From Winogradskyella immobilis (GTDB taxonomy: Bacteria; Bacteroidota; Bacteroidia; Flavobacteriales; Flavobacteriaceae), in the NCBI RefSeq assembly GCF_021887715.1, contig NZ_JAIQXX010000001.1, forward strand, positions 1 through 64,000: a stretch of 64,000 nt of DNA. Reading direction: 5' to 3'. Shown here piece by piece: positions 37,606 to 37,856 of the stretch. A model generated the notes under the pieces. It was not told where the DNA came from and made no database searches. It saw only the letters and a program-made list of their open reading frames with translations. Position 1 is the stretch's first letter. Every line of letters begins with the position of its first letter. The position numbers were made by a program, and so were the translations under genes.

Positions 37606-37678
37606 TGGCCTATGGTGTAACTGGCAACACGTCTGGTTTTGGTCCAGAAGAGTCTAGGTTCGAGCCCTAGTAGGCCAA
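37606..37678 (+). tRNA. tRNA-Gln (anticodon TTG)
   Basis: The 73-base sequence folds as a complete cloverleaf: acceptor TGGCCTA with TAGGCCA, D stem GTGT/ACAC, anticodon stem TCTGG/CCAGA around loop TTTTGGT, and T stem CTAGG/CCTAG around TTCGAGC. The anticodon TTG reads CAA/CAG glutamine codons. The discriminator is A and the CCA end is not encoded (ACA follows). The last bases and the terminator are duplicated 136 bases downstream. Confidence 0.97.
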
Positions 37679-37720
37679 CATAATTTTAAATCCTTATTCT
37701 TTTTAGAGTGAGGATTTTTT
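37671..37720 (+). repeat. Direct repeat of tRNA 3' end plus terminator, copy 1
   Basis: This 50-base unit holds the 3' acceptor strand of tRNA-Gln (TAGGCCAACA) and the tRNA terminator. In the terminator ATCCTTATTCT (37690-37700) pairs with AGAGTGAGGAT (37705-37715), with two G-U pairs and a TTTT loop, and then T residues follow. An identical unit lies at 37807-37856. Confidence 0.9.
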
Positions 37721-37755
37721 CGTTTTTGCTATTTAATTTAGGGCGAGAAGTTTAT

Positions 37756-37804
37756 GCTGAGCGTAGCCGAAGTGAGCCCTAGCGATGTGCTGAGCTTGTC
37801 GAAG
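37756..37804. repeat. Two dispersed GCTGAGC-GAAG elements around a tRNA fragment
   Basis: GCTGAGCGTAGCCGAAG (37756-37772) and GCTGAGCTTGTCGAAG (37789-37804) flank GAGCCCTAG, which equals the tRNA-Gln T-arm 3' part. The same element family appears at 62503-62519 and 63684-63701. Confidence 0.8.
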
Positions 37805-37806
37805 TA

Positions 37807-37856
37807 TAGGCCAACATAATTTTAAATCCTTATTCTTTTTAGAGTGAGGATTTTTT
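37807..37856 (+). repeat. Direct repeat of tRNA 3' end plus terminator, copy 2
   Basis: Identical to 37671-37720 over 50 bases. There is no tRNA body in front of it, only a T-arm fragment separated by an inserted dispersed element, so it is a remnant and not a second tRNA. Confidence 0.9.

Follow-up and report, generated by a model that had tools for sequence, protein, structure and literature searches.

A hairpin-bearing unit with a spare tRNA tail behind tRNA-Gln of Winogradskyella immobilis: a candidate class of minimal insertions at the tRNA T-loop

The tRNA-Gln locus and its second tail

The window, i.e. the whole 64-kb stretch of Winogradskyella immobilis DNA that was analysed, carries a tRNA-Gln(ttg) gene at 37606–37679, identified by ARAGORN and by the Rfam tRNA model (62.9 bits). 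As the original prediction had claimed, the tRNA tail and its terminator recur exactly: the repeat TAGGCCAACATAA...GGATTTTTT is identical at 50/50 positions between 37671–37720 and 37807–37856, with a start-to-start distance of 136 nt. Both copies contain a terminator-like hairpin (37688–37717 and 37824–37853), a feature found three times in the window vs. 0.4 times expected from shuffled sequences. Exactly 24 nt (37783–37806) lie between GCCCTAG (37776–37782) and TAGGCC (37807), and they contain the 16-mer GCTGAGCTTGTCGAAG, for which two matches with up to two mismatches were found in the window and none is expected by shuffling. The locus is composed of the following parts:

37606–37679, forward strand: intact tRNA-Gln(ttg); the T-loop TTCGA is at 37659–37663 and nt 59 is G37664 (ARAGORN, Rfam)
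37664–37720, forward strand: proximal (functional) tail, nt 59–73, with trailer and terminator (exact repeat; hairpin 37688–37717)
37721–37739, forward strand: unique filler from the terminator T-run to the arm (exact identity with the second copy ends at 37720)
37740–37744, forward strand: 5' arm AGGGC, complementary to GCCCT, which is nt 59–63 of the tail copy (arm/tail pairing in 94 distinct windows)
37745–37775, forward strand: hairpin element E, GAGAAGTTTATGCTGAGCGTAGCCGAAGTGA (sequence reading; family scan)
37776–37782, forward strand: second tail, nt 59–65, GCCCTAG (sequence reading; junction register)
37783–37806, forward strand: E2, a second REP-like element of 24 nt, at the T-stem/acceptor junction 65|66
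37807–37856, forward strand: remainder of the second tail (nt 66–73) with trailer and terminator (identical to 37671–37720; hairpin 37824–37853)

Reading of the sequence in front of E2 revealed that GCCCTAG is tail nt 59–65 fused to the end of E (GTGA|GCCCTAG). Hence the duplicated block begins at nt 59 and not at TAGGCC, and E2 splits the tail copy. The original prediction had described a 24-nt insert carrying GCTGAGCTTGTCGAAG in front of TAGGCC and another such element just before it; both are present, the latter being E. It had also described GCCCTAG and TAGGCC as separated fragments, and here the 24-nt split stands, while GCCCTAG has to be reassigned to a tail copy that starts at nt 59. 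We infer that one unit is present at this locus and that its dead tail later took a second REP at 65|66.

That a dispersed repeat entered at precise boundaries had been suggested, and the border of the 24-nt insert was proposed as a point to compare among loci. The same 65|66 border was found in four E-linked tail copies: the tRNA-Gln of W. immobilis, a tRNA-Gln of a second genome (G027, L009), a tRNA-Met (L067) and a tRNA-Asn (L057). In general, E2-like sequences are not specific to tRNAs, and the evidence for a 65|66 rule comes from these four E-linked tails. As a tRNA-specific element in its own right, E2 (GCGATG plus a REP) was considered and rejected: it occurs in 11/397 family genomes, and one of the 27 places listed is in a tRNA tail, namely that of the W. 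immobilis tRNA-Gln.

Element E and its pairing with tRNA tails

A DNA search with the query locus against 60 genomes (W. immobilis and relatives) returned tRNA-Gln loci and, elsewhere, matches to the middle part of the query, some with periods of ~115 nt. A tRNA was present in 13 of the 15 further stretches that were read (Thr, Leu, Trp, Asn, His, Gly, and Tyr), and where a tail followed E in those stretches it was, by reading, that of the tRNA just upstream. The recurrent order is tRNA, trailer/terminator, short arm, E (GAGAAGTTTATNCTGAGCGNAGTCGAAGNNA) and a second tRNA tail that begins at nt 59 (T-loop 58|59). The unit consists of tail nt 59–73 plus trailer, usually with a terminator; an arm of ~5 nt, sometimes longer, that is complementary to the start of the tail; and E.

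A scan of the genome collection using the pattern GAGAAGTTTATNCTGAGCNNNGTCGAAG resulted in at least 118 stretches with at least 139 E matches; this pattern, on which the counts are based, misses variants such as the longer-loop variants in viral contigs. Among the matches listed, 113/139 E copies have a same-strand ARAGORN tRNA less than 700 nt upstream, and 104 of these 113 tRNA-linked copies are followed by the tail of that very tRNA (at least 14/20 identity to its nt 59–78), 102 of them at one offset. Leftward identity between the tail copy and the tRNA stops at nt 57–59, extending 0, 1, and 2 nt beyond nt 59 in 2, 49, and 53 of the 104 rows listed. Fifteen tRNA species are represented among the matches listed: Thr-tgt (26), Gln (15), Trp (15), Leu-tag (12), His (10), Gly-tcc (10), Asn (5), Met (3), Pro (2), and Ile, Ser, Lys, Ala, Leu-gag, and Leu-taa with one each. 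The titled hosts in this set are mostly Flavobacteriaceae, and four tail-linked loci are titled Patescibacteria (tRNA-Ile in L066, Ser in L079, Pro in L100, and Leu in L124).

The exceptions among the matches listed are of two kinds. Nine of the 113 tRNA-linked copies fall below 14/20 tail identity; inspection by eye showed a partial, split or cut-off tail in eight of them (L057, L059, L067, L080, L088, L121, L128, and L135), and L069 has a tRNA upstream with the tail absent. Another 26 copies have no upstream tRNA; by eye, 17 are followed by tail-like sequence (10 rows lie less than 250 nt from the start of the locus) and nine are not, so that 9/139 E copies listed, besides L069, are without a tRNA tail. 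Tandem units occur, with up to six E copies; in G226, the genome with the longest arrays mentioned here, tRNA-Gln is followed by six E and tRNA-Gly by five. Some E copies have decayed and some distal tails have mutated, and variants of E starting with GAGAAGCCTGT exist (L026 and L351). With up to two mismatches allowed, the distribution of E is patchy (44/199 family genomes and 20/60 genus genomes).

Several arrangements around E units were recorded as separate observations. One locus (L035, G011:C1:1660200-1661400) contains three REP-bearing copies with a tRNA-His-like tail in a stretch from which the tRNA itself is absent; what lies upstream resembles a transposase gene end, and the array may thus have been split by an insertion sequence. 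In another (L262, G083:C2:483100-484000), the 5' side of a Leu-tail E array is fused at GGCGAGAAGTT to the apparent start of a mannose-6-phosphate isomerase gene. At L070, L072, and L162, 3' parts of tRNA-Leu or tRNA-Met that begin near the anticodon loop lie upstream of E-tail units and resemble attR borders. A viral origin of E was also considered and set aside. Five viral contigs matched the pattern GAGAAGTTTATNCTGAGC, and the full E pattern was found in none of the five. Two of them (L172 and L173) show a longer-loop E variant followed by tRNA-Lys-like and Asn-like tails; L173 (IMGVR_UViG_639633025_000001, position 855) also has two tRNA-Lys genes, with starts 205 and 100 nt upstream.

To count structural features, identical windows were merged into 94 distinct windows. 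The five bases before E can pair with tail nt 59–63 in 92, 89, 84, 81, and 67 of the 94; for arm pairs 1, 2, 4, and 5 the observed value was reached by 0/2000 shuffles, and position 3 is nearly invariant. Arm positions 6–8 are weakly above the shuffled means (47 vs. 40.7, 45 vs. 36.5, and 29 vs. 24.4). The arm changes with the tRNA (GGGAC/GTCCC for Thr, GAGAC/GTCTC for Leu, and CGGGT/ACCCG for His), and by reading it reaches 11 bp at tRNA-Pro of Shapirobacteria (L100) and tRNA-Leu of Salinimicrobium (L072). Within E, N11 (a position left free by the pattern) pairs with X28 in 93/94 windows against a shuffled mean of 48.9, and the free triplet is a GNA triloop in 80/94; since most of E was prescribed by the search pattern, part of its sequence conservation is built in. 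Controls also beat the shuffles: in E the non-pair 11 with 29 did so every time (40 vs. 30.6), and among six arm pairs shifted by one position, one did too. Relatedness of the sequences therefore inflates the covariation, and the case rests on effect size and on the tracking of tRNA type by the arm. Three of four E variants tested folded no better as DNA than their shuffles, and as RNA the variants were only slightly better, whereas the long-arm Shapirobacteria copy did fold better as DNA (z −3.18). The structural argument for a hairpin rests on covariation, read with these controls; thermodynamic folding by itself is unconvincing.

Filled sites, empty sites and the extent of tail identity

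Two pairs of genomes allowed a filled site to be compared with an empty one: a tRNA-Leu pair (G023 filled, G007 empty) with an insert of 125 nt and a tRNA-Gln pair (G036 filled, G025 empty) with an insert of 115 nt. Upstream of nt 59, filled and empty sites agree without a difference over 60 nt in both pairs, and in both the distal tail with its downstream sequence matches the empty site in 108/121 columns. The trailers differ in the same direction: the proximal trailer matches the empty site at 29/57 (Leu) and 31/59 (Gln) positions, vs. 45/51 and 44/51 for the distal one. At the tRNA-Thr locus of W. immobilis, a terminator like that of the congeners G262 (without E) and G275 (decayed E) is, by reading, kept only by the distal tail. 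As judged from these alignments, the unit adjoins the tRNA body, exactly between A58 and nt 59, and has its own tail and terminator, the resident tail being the distal remnant. An equal empty site would also result if a unit were lost precisely through recombination between tails, so the pairs fit gain as well as loss; genomes with any E are a minority of the genus sample (20/60).

The original prediction had offered two explanations of the repeat. The first, the scar of a large element that had integrated at the tRNA and been excised, finds some accord in the attL/attR-like geometry, since the tRNA tail and terminator do stand in direct repeat. Against it, units of similar size and order occur at many tRNAs, and relatives have either units of ~110–140 nt, too short to hold genes, or an empty site; apparent element borders near E units (L070, L072, and L162) cut the tRNA at the anticodon loop instead. 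We regard such a scar as barely credible. The second, a tandem duplication into which the repeat came only afterwards, does not hold in the relatives, in which extra tails are directly preceded by the hairpin. A scripted scan of the genus found this arrangement in 4/30 Gln loci and 9/20 Leu rows (one locus counted twice), having overlooked at least the tRNA-Gln of W. immobilis, which is split by E2, and the divergent L012; the sole extra-tail match without a hairpin (Gln) has three mismatches and looks like chance. Nor do all relatives share the double structure of the query: between one and seven tails were found, and precise insertions of the repeat occur at other loci.

A different form of local duplication is the main rival of the reading favored here. 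A REP hairpin just downstream of a tRNA could cause the tail and terminator to be copied again by slippage or template switching without integration chemistry, with the 58|59 junction set by pairing of the T-arm with the hairpin. Proximal and distal tail plus terminator are identical at several loci, including the query tRNA-Gln (50/50) and the tRNA-Leu of W. immobilis (57/57, L355), so that the tail of a unit may be a local copy rather than one brought in. Extent of identity was compared over 82 pairs, ungapped (one locus, L258, was skipped by the script), and 21 rows had at least 35 nt at 90% identity or above. Whole-unit tandem arrays exist, and in the W. immobilis genome direct copies of a dnaK-like 3' end flank a related REP. 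These points favor local duplication. What speaks against it is that the same E, the same arm logic and the same junction recur at 15 tRNA types among the matches listed, and that at both empty-site pairs the trailer/terminator of the unit differs from that of the resident tail. On this evidence, we consider local duplication a possibility of some substance, and a doubtful one.

The edges of identity bear on a further explanation, in which a 3' pre-tRNA fragment (nt 59 to the terminator) would be copied into DNA together with E by a reverse transcriptase. In 13 of the 21 rows, corresponding to 11 distinct loci (L042, L120, and L349 are one locus; L095 was positioned by eye, the script giving +17 from an earlier T-run), identity stops at −2 to +5 nt relative to the terminator T-run, and it likewise ends at the T-run at the query locus. 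In the other eight rows, identity extends past the arm to reach another E, often a truncated one, as in duplication of a whole unit; none ends between. A right edge at the T-run and a left end fixed at nt 57–59 are what copying of an RNA would give. However, the comparison was an ungapped one of a selected subset, gene conversion could yield equal edges, and no CCA was added (CCA is at 74–76 in 5/103 copies vs. 7/103 genes); we judge RNA-templated duplication to be very unlikely. The edges as such are compatible with copying to a transcript end, homology-limited conversion or terminator-bounded duplication.

Known repeat systems and a possible mode of origin

Element E resembles REPs in being a short, imperfect hairpin with many copies and differs from them in sitting in tRNA tails. 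The published rule of a GTAG or CGTC tag at one end of a REP (PMC3733652) does not describe E, since neither tag was found at its ends, which by reading are GAGAAG and (G/A)A. In the W. immobilis genome, 47 related REP cores were examined; most have no flanking direct repeats and 12/47 were flagged. A RAYT or Y1 transposase was considered as the linked enzyme and rejected. A related core was present within ~1.5 kb at one of the best 30 Y1-transposase loci and two of 30 RAYT-type loci (3/60 flanks), and no clear association emerged at the genome level: E against NF047646 in the genus sample gave 11/20 vs. 17/40 (p = 0.42), with 4/60 genomes passing the model cut-off, and E against PF01797 in the family sample gave 24/44 vs. 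49/155 (p = 0.008, lists compared by eye). The array-rich genome G226 is absent from the 73 family-sample genomes with a PF01797 match.

The only NF047646 match of W. immobilis, which is below the cut-off, is a RAYT-like domain fused to coproporphyrinogen oxidase. At this locus (L339, G000:C8:12577-12933, minus strand), the RAYT/Y1-like domain is in one frame with coproporphyrinogen III oxidase, in a protein of 505 aa with PF01218 at 211–504 (E 3e-133) and a weak PF01797 match at 12–121 (E 0.0035). Frames of ~490–532 aa in other genomes of the genus resemble it, the fusion itself being read from the W. immobilis protein only. REP cores of this genome were also noted in two other settings. At L271 (G000:C33:163500-164100, ~295–400), a dnaK-like 3' end, named by reading of the C-terminus, is present three times with two REP cores between and the frame keeps an intact end; here a protein gene has the tail-REP-tail logic, lacking GAGAAG and an arm. 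At L277, L282, L285, L301, and L307, REP cores lie beside heptamer arrays of CCTAACA or CCAAACA.

Elements inserted by tyrosine recombinases at tRNA 3' ends carry a tail that keeps the target whole and leaves the tail in direct repeat. E units are like them in having a precise tRNA junction with the tail restored; they are unlike them in measuring 115–125 nt where measured and in using one element type for many tRNAs. No integrase gene lies between the repeats, neither within the 136-nt period of the query locus nor in the inserts of 115 and 125 nt. The small dispersed repeats of cyanobacteria are also tiny, precise insertions, and we know of no tail duplication among them.

The repeats at E. 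coli tyrT were described decades ago, and no accepted origin of them is known to us. Behind tyrV of K-12 stand three exact tail copies from nt 59, with a fourth between tyrT and tyrV. The tyrV copies are preceded by GGGGAAGGAT (reverse complement of ATCCTTCCCC), GAGAAG, a hairpin sequence and GAGTA, and the tyrT unit has GGGGAAGGGT, GAGAAC, and GAATA. These are the RtT units of Rfam (RF00391), which holds RtT as an RNA family; rttR is annotated as an ncRNA in NC_000913. Like E units, they have a tail from nt 59 and upstream an arm reverse-complementary to nt 59–68, then GAGAAG (GAGAAC at tyrT) and hairpins, and they stand in tandem, as 178-nt units, behind tyrV; unlike E units, they have another hairpin body and 91 nt from arm to tail (31 at the query locus). 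GAGAAG directly after the arm is common to E units and the three tyrV units, a likeness that is only partly independent since the E search pattern fixed this motif. RtT-like places vary in number, with at least one in 4692/5426 E. coli genomes (median three, highest 10; 101-nt query). RF00391 matched 0/60 genus genomes at E ≤ 10 (with stricter filters, which lose weak matches; the E. coli control was positive) and none of eight E-bearing loci at E ≤ 1. In architecture, E units are closest to RtT by the features compared, yet they fall outside the RF00391 model.

A tail scan of K-12 (13 stretches, 44 tRNAs) identified exact 14-nt tail copies from nt 59 behind lysT, lysW, lysY, lysZ, lysQ, lysV, argQ, argZ, and argV as well, preceded by a hairpin sequence ending in GAGT(A/C). 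The base before the Lys and argQ copies is C, which places the junction there at 58|59 exactly. By reading, AGGAT, the complement of nt 59–63, lies upstream in six of the nine copies; the exact AGGAT was not found at lysQ, lysV, and argZ. The junction at 58|59, and in most cases the arm, is common to these copies and E units; GAGAAG is absent from the former. The NC_000913 feature tables for the stretches checked have no entry for the extra tails of the lys genes or of tRNA-Arg(ACG). No description of such units outside E. coli was found in the literature searched, the coverage of which left out most subscription papers, and the portions consulted of PMC12306157 and PMC3733652 do not mention them.

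Could the units be a conserved functional RNA, such as a 3' external spacer, a backup terminator or a tRNA-tail decoy, kept by selection? Covariation within E and between arm and tail, the RtT family of Rfam and the annotation of rttR would be in keeping with this. The patchy distribution of E in family and genus, the decayed E copies and the mutated distal tails weigh against it, and we judge a selected RNA function to be unlikely. Persistence of the units would need no function.

On balance, we favor reading the feature behind tRNA-Gln as one minimal insertion unit of a recurrent class that uses the T-loop as its attachment site and leaves the tRNA intact. Such a unit would arise by site-specific joining at the T-loop, i.e. 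at the T-arm hairpin, where the targets share TTCGA. The substrate would probably be single-stranded and folded, arm and tail forming a stem that has E as its cap and imitates the T-arm hairpin. With a tail supplied by the unit, the tRNA remains whole, and the resident tail, displaced downstream, can decay; a non-matching tail would spoil the tRNA, so only units with a tail matching the recipient would survive. Arrays may then grow, shrink and vanish by recombination between tails, and a dead tail can afterwards take another REP, as E2 shows, in four cases at 65|66.

More tentatively, these units might belong to a cross-phylum class of gene-less, minimal integrative units with 58|59 attachment and a T-arm-like recombination hairpin, of which RtT and the lys/arg copies of E. 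coli would be members. Since a unit must carry a host-matching tail, it would be invisible to tRNA function and persist. The flavobacterial units show the junction and arm logic of RtT at 15 tRNA types among the matches listed, together with empty sites, and so make of an isolated E. coli curiosity a class open to comparison, one that has a defined junction (58|59), a defined structure and predictions that can be tested. For annotation they suggest caution: a spare tRNA tail is not necessarily a prophage scar or the decayed relic of a whole tRNA gene.
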